Shown in pieces: positions 33,747 to 42,288 of a stretch of DNA of 64,000 bases. The stretch's first letter is position 1; each line of letters opens with the position of its first letter. A model generated the notes under the pieces. It was not told the origin of the DNA. It searched no databases and saw only the letters and a program-made list of their open reading frames with translations. The position numbers were made by a program, and so were the translations under genes. Source of the DNA: Actinoplanes nipponensis (lineage in GTDB: Bacteria; Actinomycetota; Actinomycetes; Mycobacteriales; Micromonosporaceae); the NCBI RefSeq assembly GCF_016862275.1, contig NZ_BOMQ01000052.1, positions 1 through 64,000 on the forward strand, written 5' to 3'.

Positions 33747-35141
33747 ATGGCAACTGCGAAGACGGTTTTCGTGCTGTTCGGGGCGACCGGGGACCTGGCG
33801 CGGCGGATGGTGCTGCCCGCCTTCTACACCCTGGCCATCGAGGGACTGCTGCCGCCCGGGTGGGCGCTGATCGGCAACGGCCGCGGCGACGTGGCGCACG
33901 AGGACTTCCGCAAGCACGTGCACGACGCGCTGGTCGAGTTCGGACCGCACCCGGACCAGGGGCCGTGGCGCGAGTTCGAGCGGCGGTTGTACTTCGCCGG
34001 CGGCGGCTTCGACACCGACTCCCCCGGCAGCCTGCTGGATGTGATCGGCCACGTCCGCCGCGAGCTCGGCCCCCGCCCGGAGCTGGTGCACTACCTGGCC
34101 GTGCCGCCGCAGGCCTTCCCCGGGCTGACCCGGGCGCTGGGACAGCACGGCCTGGCCGAGGGCGCCCGCGTGGTCTACGAGAAGCCGTACGGCACCTCGC
34201 CGAAGAACTTCCGGTCGCTCAACCGCATCGTGCACACCGTGCTGGACGAGTCGCAGGTCTACCGGATCGACCACTTCCTCGGCAAGGAGGCCACCCAGAA
34301 CCTGCACGTGCTGCGCTTCGCCAACGAGCTGTTCGCGGCGAACTGGCACCGCGACCACATCGAGAGCGTGCAGATCGACGTGCCCGAGACCCTCGGCGTG
34401 GCCGACCGGGCGGCCTTCTACGACGCGACCGGCGCCGTGCTCGACATGCTCGTCACGCACCTGTTCCAGGTCGCCGCCGAGGTCGCCATGGAGCCGCCGG
34501 CCAGCCTGGGCGCCGCCGACCTGCAGTCCGCCCGGGAGCGGGTGATCCGCTCGTTCCGGCCGCTGGACCCGGCCGAGGTGGTGCTGGGCCAGTTCGACGG
34601 CTACCGCGACGTCAAGGGGATCGCGGCGCGGTCGCGGACGGACACGTACGTCGCCGCGAAGCTGTGGATCGACAACGCGCGCTGGAAGGGGGTGCCGTTC
34701 CTGCTGCGTACCGGCAAGCGGATGGCGGCCGGCGAGCAGCGGGTCACCCTCGTGCTGCGCACCCCGCCGCGGCCGCTGAAGGGCCTGCCGGCCCAGGCCA
34801 ACGCGCTGACGTTCTCGCTGGCCGGCGACGGGCAGATCGAGCTGCGGCTGCTGGCCAAGAAGCCCGGGGTGGAGCTGCAGGTCGAGCCCGCGACCGTCAC
34901 GCTGCCGCTGGCCGAGCTGCCGGACGCCGAGCCGCTGCCGCCGTACGTGCGGCTGATCCACGACGTGCTGCTCGGCGACCGGTCGCTGTTCACCCGCCCG
35001 GACGGGCTCTCGGCGGCCTGGCGGGCCGTGCAGCCGATCCTGGACGCGCCGCCGCGCCTGGCCAGGTACCCGCAGGGCTCCTGGGGCCCGGCCGCGGCCC
35101 GCAAGCTCGCGGCGCCGCACGGGTGGCTGCTCGGCCAGTGA
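33747..35141 (+). CDS. zwf: glucose-6-phosphate 1-dehydrogenase
   Basis: This 464-residue enzyme oxidises glucose 6-phosphate with NAD(P)+, the entry to the oxidative pentose phosphate route. It shows the nucleotide-binding LFGATGDLARR near residue 10, the signature RIDHFLGKE with the catalytic histidine region, and EKPYGTS. It is not next to a transaldolase or opcA gene, so it is probably a second, isolated zwf of the kind common in actinomycetes. ATG follows a G-rich ribosome site. It ends 60 bp before the first tRNA-like element. Confidence 0.93.
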   Translation: MATAKTVFVLFGATGDLARRMVLPAFYTLAIEGLLPPGWALIGNGRGDVAHEDFRKHVHDALVEFGPHPDQGPWREFERRLYFAGGGFDTDSPGSLLDVIGHVRRELGPRPELVHYLAVPPQAFPGLTRALGQHGLAEGARVVYEKPYGTSPKNFRSLNRIVHTVLDESQVYRIDHFLGKEATQNLHVLRFANELFAANWHRDHIESVQIDVPETLGVADRAAFYDATGAVLDMLVTHLFQVAAEVAMEPPASLGAADLQSARERVIRSFRPLDPAEVVLGQFDGYRDVKGIAARSRTDTYVAAKLWIDNARWKGVPFLLRTGKRMAAGEQRVTLVLRTPPRPLKGLPAQANALTFSLAGDGQIELRLLAKKPGVELQVEPATVTLPLAELPDAEPLPPYVRLIHDVLLGDRSLFTRPDGLSAAWRAVQPILDAPPRLARYPQGSWGPAAARKLAAPHGWLLGQ

Positions 35142-35201
35142 CGCCGGTTCCGCCGGGGTCGTGCGGAGACCCGGACCGGCGGTGGCGCTAGAGTCCTGCC
35201 C

Positions 35202-35279
35202 CGGCGGGCCGTAGCGCAGAGGTCGTCGCGCCGCACTGCACATGCGGAGGACGCCGGTTCGATTCCGGCCGGTCCGCCG
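35202..35279 (+). tRNA. tRNA-like element 1 (nominal anticodon GCA, 10-bp terminal helix)
   Basis: The sequence folds as a cloverleaf. The terminal helix is 10 bp (35202-35211 with 35270-35279, one G-U pair) instead of 7. Then come UA, a 3-bp D stem with a loop containing AGAGGUC, a 5-bp anticodon stem (35231-35235/35243-35247) with loop CUGCACA, a 5-nt variable loop AGGAC, and a T arm GCCGG-UUCGAUU-CCGGC. The loop would present GCA (Cys) after U33. No CCA is encoded, and no U73 is available as CysRS needs. It ends 21 nt before the GTG of the ankyrin gene, so it may be a structured leader, a processed small RNA, or a non-standard tRNA. Confidence 0.7.
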
Positions 35280-35300
35280 CCTGCACGGGAGGGGGCCGGC

Positions 35301-36854
35301 GTGGAGCGGCGACGGGAACGCCTGCGGTACCTGCGCGCGCTGAACCTGGCCGCGCCGGCCGGGATGGTCGCCGCGGCCACCGAGCGCCGGCTCGCCGGGG
35401 ACTGGCGGGGCGCGTGCACGGCCGCGCTCGTCGACGTGCCCTTCGACCTGCGCTCGGTCGCGTCGACGTACGGCGCCGCGCACGCCGCGCGCATCGAGGC
35501 CGAGCTGGCCGGTCTCGCCCCCGACCTGCTGCGCCGGTTCCTGCCCCGGGCCCAGGGCCGGCTGATCCCGCGGGCCACCGTGGTGCTGTCCCGCGCCGAC
35601 GAACCCTGCCGCGGCGCCCGCGCGGGCTCCCGCCGGGCCGGCCCGGTGCTCGTGGCCACCCTGCCCAGGAGCTGGCAGGTGGCCCGGCAGGGCATCACGC
35701 TGCAGGTGACCCACCGCCTGCCCGCCACGTTCCACGACCTGCCGGACTGGTGCTGGCACGCGGACGCCGTCGCCGACCGGCGCTGGGCGTACGGCGCCGG
35801 CCCGGACCGCCTGGCCTGGCACTTCGCCGACGGGTCGCCGTACCCCCAGGGCACCGTGACCCCCGCCGAGCAGGCGGCCGACCGCCCGGGCGAGGTCGAG
35901 CGGACCGCCGCGCTGCTGAGCGCCCACCGGCCGGTGCGGGCGTTCGAGGCGGCGGGCTTCACCGTCGACGAGTCGACGCCCCACCGCTACGGCCCGGACC
36001 TGCCCGCGCTGCTGACCCGGCTGGGCCCCGCGCTGCCGATGGCCCGGGCCGAGCTGCTCCGGCTCGTCCGCCGCTACCAGCAGGAGGAGTTCTCCGCGCT
36101 GTACGGCCAGATCGGCGTGGCCCGCCTGACCGTGCGCCGGCAGGGCCACTCCGCCCTCGCCGGCCCGTGGATGTTCGGGGTGCCCGCCCCGGTCGAGGCG
36201 GCGCTGCTGCGCTTCGGCGACCTCGGCCCGGAAGAGCTGCACCCGCTGGCCCACGAGGCCCTGTTCCCGGGCCGGACCCAGCGCCGGCGGACGCTGGTAC
36301 CGCACGCGCCGGAGGCGATCCGGGTCCGCTGCGGCACCGAGTGGCACACGGTGCTGGCCACCGGCGGGCAGCTGCGCACCCCGCACCACGACGACGCGGA
36401 GATCCGGCGCGAGTTCCTGCTGGCCGGCCTGGGCGGGCCGATCAGCGGCTGCGCCGCCGCGCTGCGGGGCTGGCGCACCGGCAGCCGGCCGATGGCCAAG
36501 GACGTCCGCAAGGACCGGCAGGCGCTGTTCGCCCTGGCGCTGCACGGCGACACCGACGGGCTGCTGGCCCGGCTGGCCGGCGGGCTCGATCCGGCGTTGC
36601 GCGGCCCGGGCGGCGGCACCCTGCTGCACTGGCTCGCCCACCTCGACCACGACCGCCTGCTGCCGGTGCTGCTCGGCGCCGGGCTGTCGACGGACGACCG
36701 CGACCACGAGGGCCGGACCCCGCTGCACGCCGCGGCCGAGTCGGCCGCCGAGGCCACGATGGCCGCCCTGGTCGCCGCCGGCGCCGACCCGGACGCCCGG
36801 GACCAGCGCGGCCGGACGCCGGCGACGGTGCTGGCGCAGGTACGCGCGCCGTAG
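35301..36854 (+). CDS. ankyrin-repeat protein with large unknown N-terminal region
   Basis: This 517-residue protein begins MERRRERLRYLRALNL. Its first ~400 residues match nothing I can name; the region is rich in Trp/His motifs (FHDLPDWCWHADAVADRRW). The last ~90 residues are ankyrin repeats: GTLLHWLAHLDHDRLLPVLL, then EGRTPLHAAAESAAEATMAAL and a final GADPDARDQRGRTP. It is probably a protein-protein interaction module. The GTG lies directly after tRNA-like element 1, with GGGAGGGGG as ribosome site. It is the first protein gene of the RNA-protein cassette that runs to 41798. Confidence 0.75.
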   Translation: MERRRERLRYLRALNLAAPAGMVAAATERRLAGDWRGACTAALVDVPFDLRSVASTYGAAHAARIEAELAGLAPDLLRRFLPRAQGRLIPRATVVLSRADEPCRGARAGSRRAGPVLVATLPRSWQVARQGITLQVTHRLPATFHDLPDWCWHADAVADRRWAYGAGPDRLAWHFADGSPYPQGTVTPAEQAADRPGEVERTAALLSAHRPVRAFEAAGFTVDESTPHRYGPDLPALLTRLGPALPMARAELLRLVRRYQQEEFSALYGQIGVARLTVRRQGHSALAGPWMFGVPAPVEAALLRFGDLGPEELHPLAHEALFPGRTQRRRTLVPHAPEAIRVRCGTEWHTVLATGGQLRTPHHDDAEIRREFLLAGLGGPISGCAAALRGWRTGSRPMAKDVRKDRQALFALALHGDTDGLLARLAGGLDPALRGPGGGTLLHWLAHLDHDRLLPVLLGAGLSTDDRDHEGRTPLHAAAESAAEATMAALVAAGADPDARDQRGRTPATVLAQVRAP

Positions 36855-36909
36855 CGCGGACCGCGGACGCCCCCGGGCGGGATGGCCGCGGTTGGCTATG
36901 CTTCCGCGC

Positions 36910-36987
36910 GGCGGGGCCGTAGCGCAGAGGTCGACGCACCCGCCCATCAAGCGGGGGGACGCCGGTTCGATTCCGGCCGGTCCCGCC
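36910..36987 (+). ncRNA. tRNA-like element 2 (anticodon loop without U33)
   Basis: This cloverleaf is a close copy of element 1: a 10-bp terminal helix (36910-36919/36978-36987, one G-U), UA, the same D arm and an identical T arm. Stem CCCGC/GCGGG closes the loop CCAUCAA; by position the anticodon would be AUC, but residue 33 is C instead of U, so ordinary decoding is unlikely. The variable loop is GGGAC. It ends 20 nt before the GTG of the zinc-knuckle/SDR gene, the same arrangement as element 1. Only the anticodon arm differs much between the two, which suggests that arm sets specificity. Confidence 0.7.
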
Positions 36988-37007
36988 CCGGGCCGGAGGG
37001 GGACGCG

Positions 37008-38333
37008 GTGCCGATCGACCGGACGCAGCTGGCGGCGTGCCTGGCCGTGCTCGAGCGGCTCGACGACCCCGACCTCGACGAGGCCAGCCGGCTGGAGCTG
37101 GAACGCGCGGTCACCGCCGCGGCCCGCACCGTCAAGCGGCGCGCCAAGGCCCGCCGCGCCGCGCAGACCCGGGCGGCGGACCGGGCCGTGCTGGCCGCCG
37201 CGACCCGCTTCCACACCGAGATCCCGCCGGCGGCGCCCGGGCCGGCTCCGGCCGCCGGTCCCGGCACGCTGCGGCGCGACCGGTTCTGCTACGTCTGCAA
37301 GGCGCGGTACCGGCGGGTCGACGCCGACTACCACATGCTCTGCCCGCCCTGCGCCGACGAGAACAGGGCCCGCCGGCATGCCCGCTGCGACCTGTCCGGG
37401 CGTACCGCCGTGGTCACCGGCGGGCGCGTGAAGATCGGCTTCCACACCGCGCTCAAGCTGCTCCGCGACGGCGCCGAGGTGCTGGTCACCACCCGGTTCC
37501 CCCGCGACGCCGCCCGCCGGTACGCGGCCGTGCCCGACTTCGGCGACTGGGCGCACCGGCTGTCCGTGCACGGGCTGGACCTGCTCGACCTGCGCGCCAC
37601 CCTGGACTTCGTGGCCACGGCCGGGCGGCGCTGGGCCGGGCTCGACATCCTGGTCAACAACGCCGCGCAGACGCTGTACCGGCCCGCGGCGTACCACCGG
37701 GAGGTGCGCGCGGCCGAGGCCGCCGCCCTGGCCGGGCCGGCCGCCCGCGTCGCGATCACCGCGGGCGGCCCGGCGCTGCCGTCCACCGCCGGCGACCCGC
37801 TGTTCCCGGCCGGGCAGCACGACGAGACCGGCCACCAGCTGGACCTGCGCGAGGTCAACTCGTGGGTGCTGCACGACGCCGAGGTCAGCCCGCACGAGTG
37901 GCTGCAGGTGCACGTCGTCAACGCGTTCGCGCCGTTCCTGCTGACCTCCCGGCTGCGCCCGCTGCTGGCCGCCAGCCGGCACCCGCAGCGGCACGTCGTG
38001 CAGGTGTCGGCGATGGAGGGCAGCTTCTCGCGGCGGGGCAAGACCGTGCGGCACCCGCACACCAACATGGCCAAGGCGTCGCTGAACATGCTGGTGCGCA
38101 CGGTCGCCCCCGACTACGCCCGGGACGGCATCCACATGAACAGCGTCGACACCGGCTGGGTCACCGACGAGCGCCCGCACCCGGGCAAGTCCGCCCAGCG
38201 CGCGGCGGGCTTCCGGCCGCCGCTGGACGTCGTGGACGGCGCCGCCCGGGTGTACGACCCGATCGTGCGCGGCCTGGGCGGCGAACCGGTGAGCGGCCAG
38301 TTCCTCAAGGACTACCGGAGCGTGCCCTGGTGA
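37008..38333 (+). CDS. zinc-knuckle protein fused to a short-chain dehydrogenase-like domain
   Basis: This 441-residue protein has a helical basic N-terminus (VKRRAKARRAAQTRAADRA), a four-cysteine zinc site (Cys94, Cys97, Cys112, Cys115: CYVCK and CPPC), and an SDR Rossmann domain from about 129. TGGRVKIG (137-144) and NNAA (217-220) are present, and Ser334 and Lys356 are in place, but the active-site tyrosine of YxxxK is Thr352 (TNMAK). It may bind NAD(P) without usual dehydrogenase chemistry. The basic arm plus zinc site could bind RNA, which is inference. GTG follows tRNA-like element 2; the end overlaps the LRR gene by 4 bp. Confidence 0.82.
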   Translation: MPIDRTQLAACLAVLERLDDPDLDEASRLELERAVTAAARTVKRRAKARRAAQTRAADRAVLAAATRFHTEIPPAAPGPAPAAGPGTLRRDRFCYVCKARYRRVDADYHMLCPPCADENRARRHARCDLSGRTAVVTGGRVKIGFHTALKLLRDGAEVLVTTRFPRDAARRYAAVPDFGDWAHRLSVHGLDLLDLRATLDFVATAGRRWAGLDILVNNAAQTLYRPAAYHREVRAAEAAALAGPAARVAITAGGPALPSTAGDPLFPAGQHDETGHQLDLREVNSWVLHDAEVSPHEWLQVHVVNAFAPFLLTSRLRPLLAASRHPQRHVVQVSAMEGSFSRRGKTVRHPHTNMAKASLNMLVRTVAPDYARDGIHMNSVDTGWVTDERPHPGKSAQRAAGFRPPLDVVDGAARVYDPIVRGLGGEPVSGQFLKDYRSVPW

Positions 38334-39466
38334 CCGAACCGAACCCGGTGCGCTGCCCGGCCCTCGCCGGCCCGGACGCCGGCCCACCCGGCCCGGCCGA
38401 CCTCGCGCCGCTGCTGGCCCGCCTGGCCACCACGGCCGCGGTGGCCCGGCCCGAGCGGTTCCCGCGCGGGACGGTGCAGCCCGACGGCCGGCTCGACCTG
38501 TGCAAGCAGGCGCTGGGCCCGGACCAGGCGGCCCGGGTGGTCGCGGCGGCGGTCGGCTCCCCGCTGGTTCGCCACCTCCTGCTGGGCACCAACGGCCTGG
38601 GCACCGAGGGCGCCCGGGCGGTCGCCGGCGCCCTGCGGCCCGGGCACCACGTCGAGACGCTCTACCTGGGCTGCAACCGGATCGGCCCGGAGGGCGTGGA
38701 CGCGCTGGCCGCCCGGCTGGCCGACGACGACACCGTGCGGGCGTTGTGGCTCAAACGCAACCCGGTCGGCGACGACGGCGTGGCCCGGCTGGCCGCGGCC
38801 CTGCGGCGCAACGCCACCGTCCGCACCCTGGACCTGGTCAACGTCGGCCTGACCGTCCGCGGGCTGACCGCGCTGGCCGGCGCGCTGGCCGCCCGCCCGG
38901 CCCGGCTGCAGCGGCTCTTCCTCGGCGGCAACGGCTTCGGGCCCGAGGTGGCGCCGGCGCTGGGCACGCTGATCCACGCGGCCGGGGTCCGCGAGATCTC
39001 CCTGGCCGCCAACCACCTCGGCGACGCCGGGGCGGCCGCGCTGGCGGAGCTGGCCGAGGGCGTGCCGCTGACCCTCGGGCTCGGCGGCAACGGCCTGACC
39101 CCCGTGGGGGCGGGCGCGCTGGCCGGCCGCCTGGGCGCGTGGACGGCCCTGGATCTGGCCCGGCCGCCGTCGCAGCGCGCGCTCGGCGCGCACGGCAACG
39201 TGGTCGGCGACGAGGGCGCGTACGCGCTGGCCGACGCGCTCGGCCGGGCCCGGCTGCGGCGGCTGGACCTGCGGCGGACGGAGATCGGCGGGCGCGGCGC
39301 CCGGCGGCTGGTGGCGGCGGTGGAGGGGCATCCGACGATGGCGTACCTGGGGCTCAACGGCGGGGTGCCGCGCCGGCAACGGCGCCGGGCGGCGGAGCTG
39401 CTCGCCGGGCAGCCGGCGCCGGTGGCGCACGAGGACGTGCGGGCGATCGCGAGCGTCTACCGGTGA
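38330..39466 (+). CDS. leucine-rich-repeat protein (ribonuclease-inhibitor type)
   Basis: This 378-residue protein has an N-terminal leader of about 75 residues, then repeats of ~28 residues in the RNase-inhibitor style: LGTNGLGTEGARAVAGAL, LGCNRIGPEGVDALAARL, LKRNPVGDDGVARLAAAL, and LAANHLGDAGAAALAEL. Such curved repeats bind proteins. No signal peptide is seen, so it acts in the cytoplasm. It overlaps its neighbours by 4 bp on both sides and belongs with the MoxR/VWA pair. Confidence 0.88.
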   Translation: MTEPNPVRCPALAGPDAGPPGPADLAPLLARLATTAAVARPERFPRGTVQPDGRLDLCKQALGPDQAARVVAAAVGSPLVRHLLLGTNGLGTEGARAVAGALRPGHHVETLYLGCNRIGPEGVDALAARLADDDTVRALWLKRNPVGDDGVARLAAALRRNATVRTLDLVNVGLTVRGLTALAGALAARPARLQRLFLGGNGFGPEVAPALGTLIHAAGVREISLAANHLGDAGAAALAELAEGVPLTLGLGGNGLTPVGAGALAGRLGAWTALDLARPPSQRALGAHGNVVGDEGAYALADALGRARLRRLDLRRTEIGGRGARRLVAAVEGHPTMAYLGLNGGVPRRQRRRAAELLAGQPAPVAHEDVRAIASVYR

Positions 39467-40632
39467 CCGCCCTCGACGCCGCCGACCGGCTGGTCGCGGC
39501 GACCCGGGCCGGGCGGCTCGAGCCCACCGAGGAGCCGCGGGCCGAGGCGCTCGCCCTGGCCGTCGCCGCGAACCTGCCCGTGCTGATCTGGGGCGAGCCG
39601 GGCATCGGCAAGTCGGCCACGCTGCTGCAGCTGGCGGCCGGGCTGGGCCTGCCGATGGAGACGGTCATCGCCAGCGTGCACGAGCCGTCGGACTTCGCCG
39701 GGCTGCCCATCGTCGGTGACTCCCCCGCCACCGACGGCGTGCCGATGGCCCCGCCGGACTGGGCGGTGCGCCTGGCCCGTACCGGATCGGGCCTGATCTT
39801 CTTCGACGAGCTGTCCTCGGCGCCGCCGGCCGTGCAGGCCGCCCTGCTGCGGGTCGTCCTGGAACGCCGGGTGGGCAGCCTGCGCCTGCCGGAGCCGATC
39901 CGGATCGTGGCCGCCGCCAACCCGCCGGCCAGCGCCGCCGACGGCTGGCACCTGGCGCCGCCGCTGGCCAACCGCTTCGTGCACCTGCCGTGGGCCCACG
40001 ACCCGCGCACGGTCGCCCGCGGCCTGGCCGGCACCTGGCCGGCGGTCACCGTGCCGGTGGTCCGGCCGGAACGCGCCGGGGCCGCCCTGGCCCGGGCCCG
40101 CGGGGCCCTGGCCGGCTTCCTGACCGCCCGCCCCGGGCTCACCCACCACCTGCCGGCGGACGCGGAGAGCCGCGGCGGGGCCTGGCCGTCGCCGCGGACC
40201 TGGGAGATGGTGCTGCGGCTGCTGACGTTCCACTACAGCGCCCGGACCGGCCGGGAGGCGCTGGCCCTCGCCGTCGCCGGCGCGGTGGGCCCCGGCGCCG
40301 GGCTGGAGTTCGTCACGTACCTGGAGAACCTCGACCTGCCGGACCCCGAGCGGGTGCTGGCCGACCCGGCGGCGTTCACGCTGCCCGAGCGCGGCGACCG
40401 GCAGCTGGCGTTCCTCACCGCGGTGATCTCGGCGGTGCGCGCGGACGTCACCCGCCCGCGGTGGGAGGCCGGCTGGGTGGTGCTGGAGAAGGCCGTCGCG
40501 GCCGGCGTGCCCGACGTGGCCGCCCGCGCGGCGGCCGACCTGGCCGCGCTGCGCGAGCCGGGCTGGCCGGTGCCGGCCACTGTGGAGGCCTTCGCCGAGG
40601 TGCTGTCGCTGTCCGGCCTGCTGCCCGGGTGA
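39463..40632 (+). CDS. MoxR-family AAA+ ATPase
   Basis: This 389-residue ATPase has Walker A GEPGIGKSA (44-52), Walker B LIFFDELSS (Asp115, Glu116), and sensor 1 Asn153 (AAANPP). MoxR ATPases act as chaperone-like remodelling machines with a VWA partner, as in RavA-ViaA. The partner gene follows with a 4-bp overlap. The target is unknown; the LRR and ankyrin proteins could recruit it. Confidence 0.92.
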   Translation: MTALDAADRLVAATRAGRLEPTEEPRAEALALAVAANLPVLIWGEPGIGKSATLLQLAAGLGLPMETVIASVHEPSDFAGLPIVGDSPATDGVPMAPPDWAVRLARTGSGLIFFDELSSAPPAVQAALLRVVLERRVGSLRLPEPIRIVAAANPPASAADGWHLAPPLANRFVHLPWAHDPRTVARGLAGTWPAVTVPVVRPERAGAALARARGALAGFLTARPGLTHHLPADAESRGGAWPSPRTWEMVLRLLTFHYSARTGREALALAVAGAVGPGAGLEFVTYLENLDLPDPERVLADPAAFTLPERGDRQLAFLTAVISAVRADVTRPRWEAGWVVLEKAVAAGVPDVAARAAADLAALREPGWPVPATVEAFAEVLSLSGLLPG

Positions 40633-41798
40633 GCGGCGCCCTGGACCGGACCCGGCTGCTGGCGGCCCGCTACCGGGCGGCGCAGGACCGGCCGTACCTG
40701 GCGACGGCGCTGTTCAGCCTGACCGTGGTGGAGTCGCCGCACGTTGCCACGATGGGCGTGGACCGGCGGTGGCGCTGCCACGTGTCGCCCGCGTTCGTGG
40801 CCCGCACGCCGGTGCCCCAGCTGGCCGCGGTCTGGATCCACGAGGTCGCCCACCTGCTGCGGGACCATCACGGCCGGGCGGACCGGCTGCCGGCCGGCGC
40901 CACGCCCGACCATCTGCGGATCAACGTGGCCCAGGACTGCGAGATCAACGACGACCTGCTGGCCGACCGGCTGCCGCTGCCGGCCGACCGGGTCGAGCCG
41001 GCCACCTACGGCCTGCCCGCGGGCCTGCTGTTCGAGCAGTACCTGACGTTGCTGCCGCCGGAGGTGCGGGCCCGGTCCGACTGCGGCTGCGGCGCGCACG
41101 GCGCCGAGCGGCCGTGGGAACGCGACGGGGCCGGCGGCGTCAGCCCGGCCGAGGCCGAGGCGATCCGGCGGGACACCGCCCGGCAGATCCTCGGCCGGGG
41201 CGACGTGCCGGCCGGCTGGCGGCGCTGGGCCGGCCGGACCCTCGAGCCGCGGGTGGACTGGCGGCGGCAGCTCAGCGGCGCGGTCCGGGAGGCGCTGGCC
41301 TGGGCCGGCGGGGCGGTGGACTACACGTACGCGCGGCCGTCGCGGCGCTCGGCGGCGCTGCGCGGGGTGGTCCTGCCCCGCCTGCGCCGCCCGGTGCCGC
41401 GGGTGGCGATCGTGGTGGACACCTCGGGGTCGATGGGTGAGCCGGAGCTGGCGGCGGCGCTGGCCGAGGTGGCCGGGGTGCTGCGCGTGGTCGGCGTCGG
41501 CGGCAACCGGACCACCGTGCTGTCCTGCGACGCGGCCGTGCACGTGGCCCGGGCGGTCTACACGGTCGGCGAGGTGCGGCTCTCCGGCGGCGGCGGCACG
41601 GACATGCGGGTGGGCGTCGCCGAGGCGCTGAAGTACCGGCCCCAGGTGGTGATCGTGCTGACCGACGGCCTCACCCCGTGGCCCGACACGCCCCCGGAGT
41701 CGGCCCGGCTGATCGCCGCGCTGATCGGCCCGGCCGCGCCCCGGCCGCCGGACTGGATCACGACCGTGGCCGTGGACGGACCGGTCAGCGGGCGGTGA
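40629..41798 (+). CDS. VWA-domain protein with N-terminal HExxH metallopeptidase-like domain
   Basis: This 389-residue protein has HEVAH at 71-75 in a DUF2201-type N-terminal domain, a cysteine cluster DCGCG near 151-155, and a C-terminal VWA-like domain with an intact metal site: DTSGS (264-268), Thr324 (GGGTDM) and Asp346 (LTDG). It is the expected partner of the MoxR ATPase. The HExxH suggests a zinc peptidase-like site that could be delivered by the ATPase. The 3' end overlaps the convergent deaminase gene by 14 bp. Confidence 0.9.
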   Translation: MSGALDRTRLLAARYRAAQDRPYLATALFSLTVVESPHVATMGVDRRWRCHVSPAFVARTPVPQLAAVWIHEVAHLLRDHHGRADRLPAGATPDHLRINVAQDCEINDDLLADRLPLPADRVEPATYGLPAGLLFEQYLTLLPPEVRARSDCGCGAHGAERPWERDGAGGVSPAEAEAIRRDTARQILGRGDVPAGWRRWAGRTLEPRVDWRRQLSGAVREALAWAGGAVDYTYARPSRRSAALRGVVLPRLRRPVPRVAIVVDTSGSMGEPELAAALAEVAGVLRVVGVGGNRTTVLSCDAAVHVARAVYTVGEVRLSGGGGTDMRVGVAEALKYRPQVVIVLTDGLTPWPDTPPESARLIAALIGPAAPRPPDWITTVAVDGPVSGR

Positions 41799-42288
41799 CC
41801 TGCTCGTACAGCCGGAACGGCGCGGCCGCGTCGGCCCCGGTGCGTCCGGCGCGGGCGATGCCCGGCAGCACCTGGGTGACGGCGTCGATGAGCCGGGCCG
41901 TGGTGTCCGGGTCGGGGTCGACGGACGCCGCGACCAGCGCCTTGTCGGCCGCGTAGACGATCTCGCGGATCCCGGCCGCGGCGGCGACCAGCCGGCAGAT
42001 CGCGCAGGGCTCGCAGTTGGCGTAGACGACGGCGCCGGACAGGTCGGCCGTGCCGAGCCGGCGGGTGGCGTCCCGGACGGCGGCGACCTCGCCGTGCCCG
42101 GACGGGTCGTGGTCGTCCAGCAGGGTGTTGACGCCGCCGCCGAGCACGACCCCGTCGCGGACGACCAGCGCCGCGAAGGGCAGCCGGCCGGCGGCGGCCC
42201 GGGCCAGGGCCAGCTCGACGGCGCGGGCCAGCGCCGTGCTCTCGTCGAGCCGGGCGCCGATCAGGGATTCGACATCGACCGTCGTCAT
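41785..42288 (-). CDS. nucleoside/guanine deaminase-like cytidine deaminase superfamily protein
   Basis: This 167-residue protein has the zinc and catalytic motifs HGEVAA and CEPCAIC of the CMP/dCMP/guanine deaminase group. The motif spacing fits nucleoside deaminases of the guanine deaminase type rather than cytidine deaminase proper. It would hydrolyse an amino group from a purine or pyrimidine base. It overlaps the VWA gene by 14 bp but on the opposite strand, so it is probably not part of that cassette. Confidence 0.85.
   Translation of the reverse strand: MTTVDVESLIGARLDESTALARAVELALARAAAGRLPFAALVVRDGVVLGGGVNTLLDDHDPSGHGEVAAVRDATRRLGTADLSGAVVYANCEPCAICRLVAAAAGIREIVYAADKALVAASVDPDPDTTARLIDAVTQVLPGIARAGRTGADAAAPFRLYEQVTAR

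Follow-up and report, generated by a model that had tools for sequence, protein, structure and literature searches.

The window analyzed here is a stretch of 64,000 nucleotides (nt) from Actinoplanes nipponensis (contig NZ_BOMQ01000052.1, positions 1 to 64,000 of the forward strand). Between its positions 35,201 and 41,798 lies a cassette in which two RNA elements resembling transfer RNA (tRNA) alternate with the first two of five protein genes. The first element lies 5' of a gene for an ankyrin protein, whose N-terminal region is here called ANKN, and the second lies 5' of a gene for a zinc-motif protein with a short-chain dehydrogenase/reductase (SDR) domain, here called SDR-zinc. Genes for a leucine-rich repeat (LRR) protein, a MoxR-like ATPase and a protein with HExxH and VWA parts follow (Table 1). 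A preliminary description, made from the sequence alone, had proposed that elements and genes form a dedicated RNA-protein system. We conclude with high confidence that a family of tRNA-like RNAs exists and that it is coupled to these genes: the RNAs are conserved and covarying, they are placed systematically 5' of the same gene families, and they are not ordinary tRNAs.

The locus and its two elements

ARAGORN calls tRNA genes in the window at 35205-35278 (anticodon GCA) and 36912-36988 (AUC), and these are the only two Rfam matches in the window above the gathering score, both to the tRNA family (RF00005). When the longer acceptor helix is counted, the elements have the limits given in Table 1. 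They had been described as near-identical cloverleafs, which holds for the D and T arms, where 2 of 36 bases differ, but not for the anticodon arms, which diverge widely. Of the 66 tRNA matches in the source genome (8.95 Mb), three are elements of the new family: the two in the window and one at C17:33261-33342. Since the 45 further tRNAs examined in this genome include a true tRNA-Cys(GCA) and tRNA-Asp(GUC), the window elements are not needed for decoding.

Table 1. Features of the cassette, in positions of the window (gene coordinates include stop codons)
Feature	Position	Strand	Basis or remark
-10 box TAGAGT of element 1	35189..35194	+	at -12 to -7 before the element
tRNA-like element 1, loop GCA, extended acceptor helix, 5' of the ankyrin gene	35201..35280	+	R1 97.4 bits, ARAGORN, Rfam tRNA 52.2 bits, covariation
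Ankyrin protein: N-terminal ANKN region (about 395 residues) and C-terminal ankyrin repeats	35301..36854	+	ANKN without Pfam match
-10 box TATGCT of element 2	36897..36902	+	comparison of elements
tRNA-like element 2, loop CCATCAA, 5' of the SDR-zinc gene	36909..36988	+	R1 93 bits, ARAGORN, Rfam tRNA 54.6 bits
SDR-zinc protein: helical N-terminus, CxxC...CxxC, Rossmann SDR domain, TxxxK	37008..38333	+	alignment, structure model
Leucine-rich repeat protein (LRR_6)	38330..39466	+	Pfam
MoxR-like AAA ATPase (accessory)	39463..40632	+	Pfam AAA_5
HExxH metallopeptidase-like and VWA protein (accessory)	40629..41798	+	Pfam DUF2201_N and DUF2201

The coordinates agree with the 4-bp overlaps reported earlier between the SDR-zinc, LRR, MoxR and HExxH-VWA genes. 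The cassette is neighbored by a gene of the cytidine/deoxycytidylate-deaminase family (41785-42288, minus strand) and by a plus-strand gene at 33747-35141, whose sequence looks glucose-6-phosphate dehydrogenase-like.

A covarying family of tRNA-like RNAs

Relatives of the SDR-zinc gene were collected, and the surrounding DNA was read for elements. The RNA is about 80 nt long and has the cloverleaf fold of tRNA. The elements keep U8, A14, G18G19, the T-loop TTCRA and a variable loop of 5. With the D and T arms as anchors, most of them have an acceptor helix of 9-10 bp, as against 7 in canonical tRNA. The folding energies of elements 1 and 2 (z -1.16 and -2.05) are equaled by 25 and 6 of 200 shuffles, respectively. 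Thermodynamic folding alone is weak at the G+C content of the source; the fold is supported by covariation across homologues.

Covariation was assessed on a MAFFT alignment with a structure written down from the tRNA cloverleaf. Both sides have changed in 17 of the 24 pairs (49 aligned elements), and the covariation score is 0.489, compared with 0.170 in the shuffled and at most 0.128 in the slid controls; 500 shuffles reach none of the five measures. Acceptor pairs 8, 9 and 10 are formed in 43, 44 and 35 of the 49 elements, versus 9, 13 and 18 of the 45 true tRNAs of the source genome. Variation without base-pair covariation, which the preliminary description had named as grounds for giving up the idea, is clearly not what these elements display.

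The covariance model search suggested at the same time also found the elements again. The model, R1, was built from 49 elements (75 were at hand, 58 of them non-redundant, and nine were omitted for length, distance or irregular arms). Applied to 16 genomes, it gives 51 elements a score of at least 77.3 bits, and no other match exceeds 65.5 bits. It is important to note that R1 models a 10-bp helix and hence favors a long one, and that the gap is not absolute: some variants next to partner genes reach only 48-76 bits (L109, L131, L133, L158, L166, L167, L170, L173, L195), and matches of 60-73 bits, presumably ordinary tRNAs, are common across the phylum. In Rfam, the elements match nothing but tRNA.

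One alternative is that the elements are ordinary or decaying tRNA genes, or attachment (att) sites of mobile cassettes, and flank the protein genes by chance. The elements do score as tRNAs, and among 296 genomes drawn from the whole phylum, matches above 77 bits are confined to G000 and G381, so the distribution is patchy. But chance flanking does not account for an over-long helix that covaries, a -10 box at that helix, the lack of a conserved encoded CCA, or the return of the same gene families in independent genomes. Plain tRNA genes were rejected on the long covarying acceptor, the -10 box and the R1 score gap, and we regard the whole alternative as highly improbable, although no search was made for integrase sites.

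Two further arrays were noted. At L133:6010-7310, incomplete SDR-like open reading frames alternate with two pairs of tRNA-like elements, and one anticodon arm is 31 nt long. At G000:C64:11272-12596 (L206), about a dozen tRNA genes, some of which score low, are packed closely together, and further copies are scattered over the rest of that genome; this array looks imported.

Promoter placement

A scan for consensus promoters and terminators gave no promoter, and the -10 box emerged solely from comparing elements. Inner members of tandem runs aside, 135 of 142 elements have the motif TANNNT between 15 and 5 nt ahead of their first base, compared with 27 of 7100 random 11-mers. It is kept in every context: before ANKN genes (44/45), SDR genes (26/26), LRR genes (9/9) and ANKC genes (3/3), in solitary elements (22/25) and at the heads of tandem runs (31/34). 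For inner tandem elements, position counts indicate such a box in about 10 of 34. With the box placed just before the first base, transcription probably begins at the acceptor helix itself.

Genomic context and partner genes

An element, single or in a short tandem run, mostly lies 20-130 nt before an SDR-zinc, ANKN or LRR gene, or else stands alone. The fetched loci hold 186 distinct elements; the next feature downstream is an SDR gene for 51, an ANKN gene for 51, an ANKC gene for three, an LRR gene for nine, another element for 40 and neither for 32. Because an element or an SDR relative was the reason for selecting these loci, the genome counts given below are less biased. The last class, in which neither a partner gene starts within 700 nt nor another element follows within 300 nt, is reduced to 29 solitary elements when L065 and one row of L069, which look like ordinary tRNAs, and L076, which heads a run unseen by R1, are set aside. 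No downstream family recurs among the 29, and solitary sites are kept between related genomes (L149/L189, L150/L191, L144/L152).

These solitary copies suggest action in trans, and they bear on a second alternative. Leaders that mimic tRNA regulate some aminoacyl-tRNA synthetase mRNAs, and the elements could likewise be 5' untranslated regions, the tRNA-like fold being bound by the gene's own product, or by an enzyme that binds or processes tRNA, to regulate expression. Such a cis-acting leader would agree with the elements having their own -10 box at a short distance from an SDR, ANKN or LRR start codon. It would not be expected, however, to stand without a partner, as the 29 do, to keep its -10 box there, or to keep solitary pairs at the same sites in related genomes, and tandem runs and an arm that varies on a fixed core are equally unexpected for a leader recognized by its own product. 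We consider a cis-acting role unlikely.

At the level of genomes, the association with partner genes is strong. Of 200 genomes of the source organism's family (Micromonosporaceae), 60 contain an element and 43 the LRR gene. All 43 genomes with the LRR gene have an element, versus 17 of the 157 without it (Fisher p 3.5e-30; like all genome counts here, this ignores the relatedness of genomes). Elements are also found in 37 of 39 genomes with ANKN and in 51 of 76 with VWA, paralogues included. Most cassette loci have a tRNA-like element just 5' of the SDR gene on the same strand, and 20 of 58 ANKN stretches start within 100 nt of an element (counted by eye). The RNAs are not bound to the whole cassette, as had been thought at the outset: they also stand before lone ankyrin genes, alone, and in LRR-first cassettes (element-LRR-ANKN-MoxR-VWA) without an adjacent SDR gene (L122, L123, L128, L129, L131, L134). 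A cassette of this LRR-first kind was found once outside the family (G381, L204).

Several diverged element-ANKN units may occur in one genome (for example, two in G184 and two in G174), which recalls a third possibility. In type III toxin-antitoxin systems, a small structured RNA, sometimes repeated, lies directly 5' of a protein gene. Here too the RNA gene lies directly 5' of a protein gene, at times in two or three tandem copies, and might restrain an ANKN, SDR or LRR protein that becomes toxic once the RNA is lost. But no known type III toxin domain was recognized among the Pfam matches, that design includes neither solitary RNAs nor an unchanging scaffold with a hypervariable anticodon loop, and about 22 ANKN genes inside cassettes have no element of their own (by eye). 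Restraint of this type appears quite unlikely to us.

The MoxR-VWA pair, of a kind that the preliminary description had called chaperone-like machines, looks accessory and dispensable for the association of RNA and genes: at L081, L086 and L091, elements accompany ANK, SDR or LRR genes with no MoxR or VWA match within the 15-kb stretch, and VWA paralogues occur in 25 of the 200 genomes without any element. A second VWA/DUF2201 paralogue, about 50-55% identical, is widespread in the family (e.g., G000:C70:28073-29194), and in G062, G100, G104 and G129 it has an ANKN gene at a distance of a few kb.

This bears on the idea of quality control similar to that of Y RNAs, in which RNA scaffolds would gate the access of substrates to a ring machine, MoxR-VWA taking the place of Ro60. 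The tRNA-like module is reminiscent of that of YrlA (PMC7790460), and a VWA domain and a ring ATPase share the operon. But the window has no match to a Y-RNA family in Rfam, YrlA included, the six window proteins scanned contain no TROVE domain, and elements occur with SDR or ANKN alone where no MoxR-VWA is nearby (L081, L086, L091, L140). The link to Y RNA or RNA repair that had been suggested found no direct support; a YrlA-Rtc repair operon was set aside as well, with no Rtc domain, RtcB among them, in the scanned proteins. We judge Y-RNA-like quality control very unlikely.

Partner proteins

The structure model of SDR-zinc is good (mean predicted local distance difference test, pLDDT, 91.5) and has an SDR fold, and its best matches in the PDB are SDR enzymes. 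All 34 aligned rows have Thr at the position of the catalytic Tyr and an invariant Lys, and the same motif is found in an alignment of 122 rows. With Thr replacing the catalytic Tyr, classical dehydrogenase chemistry of this protein is doubtful.

The 395 residues of ANKN have no Pfam match in any of the 29 members, and Cys, His and Trp positions in them are conserved. The model of the ankyrin protein (pLDDT 54.0) is too poor for a structure search. MoxR (AAA_5) and VWA (DUF2201) matches lie above the Pfam cut-off, and a bpMoxR match lies below it. PADLOC and PHROGs returned only ankyrin, AAA, SDR and VWA-like relatives.

Mobile origins were also considered and set aside. The protein P0002 has no match in 50,697 phage records (E 1e-30). 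The exact D-arm pattern occurs in two viral contigs (L226, L227) at only 20-23 bits and unseen by ARAGORN. ANKN has partial matches in eight Streptomyces and Embleya plasmid records, and no element was found in the four stretches viewed. The Streptomyces plasmids L228, L229 and L230 carry a three-gene unit of an ANKN N-terminal-domain protein, a MoxR ATPase and a VWA-like protein, in which no tRNA-like element was found.

Distribution beyond the phylum

ARAGORN detects tRNA-like genes just 5' of the SDR gene in two cyanobacteria (L010, L066), Armatimonadota (L055), SAR324 (L045), Thiotrichaceae (L005) and an unplaced bacterium (L076). R1 gives these elements 33-52 bits and misses L010 at E 1e-4. 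Their acceptor helices have 8-9 bp in most of those measured and 7 in one; together with the place before the SDR gene, this suggests that they belong to the same RNA family. The exact D-arm pattern, searched in ten such genomes, has seven hits, five of which are these SDR loci. The two remaining hits lie in Aureispira (G503, the genome of L063; C261:1252 and C677:11357), away from the SDR locus. No element was seen at L006, L007, L063, L071 and L080. At L076:4220-4557, at least three tandem tRNA-like genes precede an open reading frame of 315 aa without a Pfam match, 2.5 kb 5' of the element-SDR-LRR unit.

A tree of 128 SDRs requires 13 changes of the element and LRR labels, versus 47.9 when they are shuffled; the tree was made by a quick method and carries long-branch warnings. 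The simplest reading is an old association of SDR and element with later loss. Horizontal transfer of the association is an alternative that we do not prefer.

The anticodon arm

In two of the three orthologue sets compared, the anticodon arm is the part of the RNA that changes most between close relatives; in the third, described below, it is constant. In three orthologues of one genus that stand before the SDR gene, the identity of the arm is 0.71 and that of the other parts 0.90-1.00. In the same-genus set before the ankyrin gene, the values are 0.86 and 0.96-1.00, and the loops read CTGCACA, CTGCGGA and TTGCCCA. Arms were parsed for 141 of the 186 elements (45 failed), and 97 have a standard arm. 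These 97 include 60 distinct loops, with U33 in 66 and A37 in 57.

For comparison with decoding tRNAs, 81 distinct arms were set against the 45 true tRNAs of the source genome, with re-dealt arms as the null. Seven of the 81 match a real tRNA arm at 16-17 of 17 positions (re-dealt mean 1.98, maximum 5 in 500); the close matches include exact copies of the Glu-CUC and Asp-GUC arms, and also Trp-CCA and Ala-UGC. At 15 or more positions there are 13 (re-dealt mean 7.71, reached in 9/500). Twelve of 76 loops are identical to a real tRNA loop, compared with 4.38 under the null (0/2000). Some arms, that is, imitate tRNAs faithfully, and most do so only loosely. Pairing of the loop as a guide RNA was considered and dropped, a 7-nt loop being short.

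Proposed role

We propose that the tRNA-mimic RNAs are baits or decoys in a conflict system that senses ribonucleases, and we put the probability of this at about 0.35. A fixed tRNA scaffold with a changing arm, partly copied from tRNAs, is the look expected of a lure for anticodon nucleases. The steps would be as follows. Transcribed from the first base of the helix, the RNA would need no 5' processing, and its long acceptor helix would bar it from translation. It would work in trans, bound by the proteins encoded alongside, and the variable anticodon arm would be the part that is read. The mimics could lure ribonucleases that attack the anticodon loops of tRNAs, be they toxins of competitors, of phages or of the cell itself. 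Damage to a mimic, or its occupancy, would be signaled via the SDR, LRR and ankyrin proteins and, in full cassettes, might pass on to the MoxR-VWA-HExxH machine.

The carriers of elements include filamentous or mycelial groups. Groups of the same kind carry the MoxR-vWA conflict systems (PMC7159879). Two published proposals point in a similar direction. In a paper on the Salmonella repair operon, a role of YrlA as competitive inhibitor against an anticodon nuclease is raised (PMC7790460), and MoxR-vWA pairs have been proposed to serve the conflict systems of multicellular prokaryotes as effector switches (PMC7159879).

Several observations weigh against a bait or decoy role. No nuclease or repair domain was recognized in the cassette, and no PADLOC model of a complete defense system matched it. 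The CCTTGACTGCAAGCTGG-type class, which stands before SDR or LRR genes, has a constant arm: it is identical in 8 of 8 elements of genus g17, and the acceptor varies more. U33 is missing from 31 of the 97 standard arms, 58 of the 81 distinct arms match real tRNAs at 13 or fewer of 17 positions, and the 23 that match at 14 or more are no better than re-dealt arms (mean 19.79; 83/500). Homologous loci without elements, which the preliminary description had named as evidence against a dedicated system, exist in part: a 69-row SDR clade, mostly of Streptomycetaceae, has no element, and the same is true of some cassettes. L103 and L105 keep a truncated remnant (the T arm and part of the acceptor) just 5' of the SDR start in cassettes that are otherwise intact, and L104 and L106 have no element at the SDR locus.

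Taken further, the bait or decoy role would make the whole an innate guard of tRNA integrity, in which a bank of exchangeable mimics is observed by dedicated watcher proteins and the MoxR-VWA metallopeptidase executes the response, in actinobacteria and, in a form centered on the SDR protein, in other phyla. We offer this extension as a possibility, and a doubtful one.

Only a few bacterial RNAs are known to mimic tRNA while taking no part in translation. The RNA presented here is conserved widely and tied to particular protein families, and its anticodon arm is a natural readout. It would be a concrete system for testing whether bacteria use decoys to protect the integrity of their tRNAs. It also gives candidate roles to domains that have remained unannotated, namely ANKN, SDR-zinc without the catalytic tyrosine, and DUF2201.

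Comparison with known systems

Literature searches among the open-licence papers of PubMed Central found no description of a tRNA-like RNA with these partner genes, in line with the preliminary description, to which no such system was known. The recurrence of the pairing of RNA and gene in many relatives and in some distant bacteria points to an undescribed system of tRNA-like RNA and partner proteins, which fits none of the known families tested.

The MoxR-vWA ternary conflict systems (PMC7159879) resemble the cassette in having a MoxR AAA ATPase and a VWA protein, and in their occurrence in mycelial actinobacteria and cyanobacteria. They differ in that VMAP, iSTAND, FtsH and beta-propeller domains are missing from the Pfam scan of the window proteins, although these profiles are possibly not in Pfam. 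The text of PMC7159879 contains neither "ankyrin" nor "leucine-rich", and its single "tRNA" sits in the reference list. YrlA with Rsr/Ro60 and the Rtc operon (PMC7790460) is similar in that a tRNA-like RNA is encoded next to protein genes, a VWA gene among them, whereas the cassette proteins scanned here have no TROVE, RtcA or RtcB, and the RNAs have no Y-RNA match.

Type III toxin-antitoxin systems share the position of the RNA and its occasional repetition, but the RNA here is a tRNA mimic with a variable arm that also occurs alone, and the proteins are of the ANK, SDR and LRR kinds. With catalytic SDR oxidoreductases, SDR-zinc shares the Rossmann SDR fold but not the YxxxK motif, for which it has TxxxK. 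From the canonical elongator tRNA (RF00005), the elements are set apart by the 9-10-bp acceptor helix in place of 7 bp, the -10 box at the helix, the lack of a conserved CCA, an arm untied from decoding and the separation achieved by R1 in 16 genomes; what they have in common with it are the cloverleaf, the conserved bases of the D- and T-loops and, in several elements, an anticodon arm that matches that of a real tRNA.

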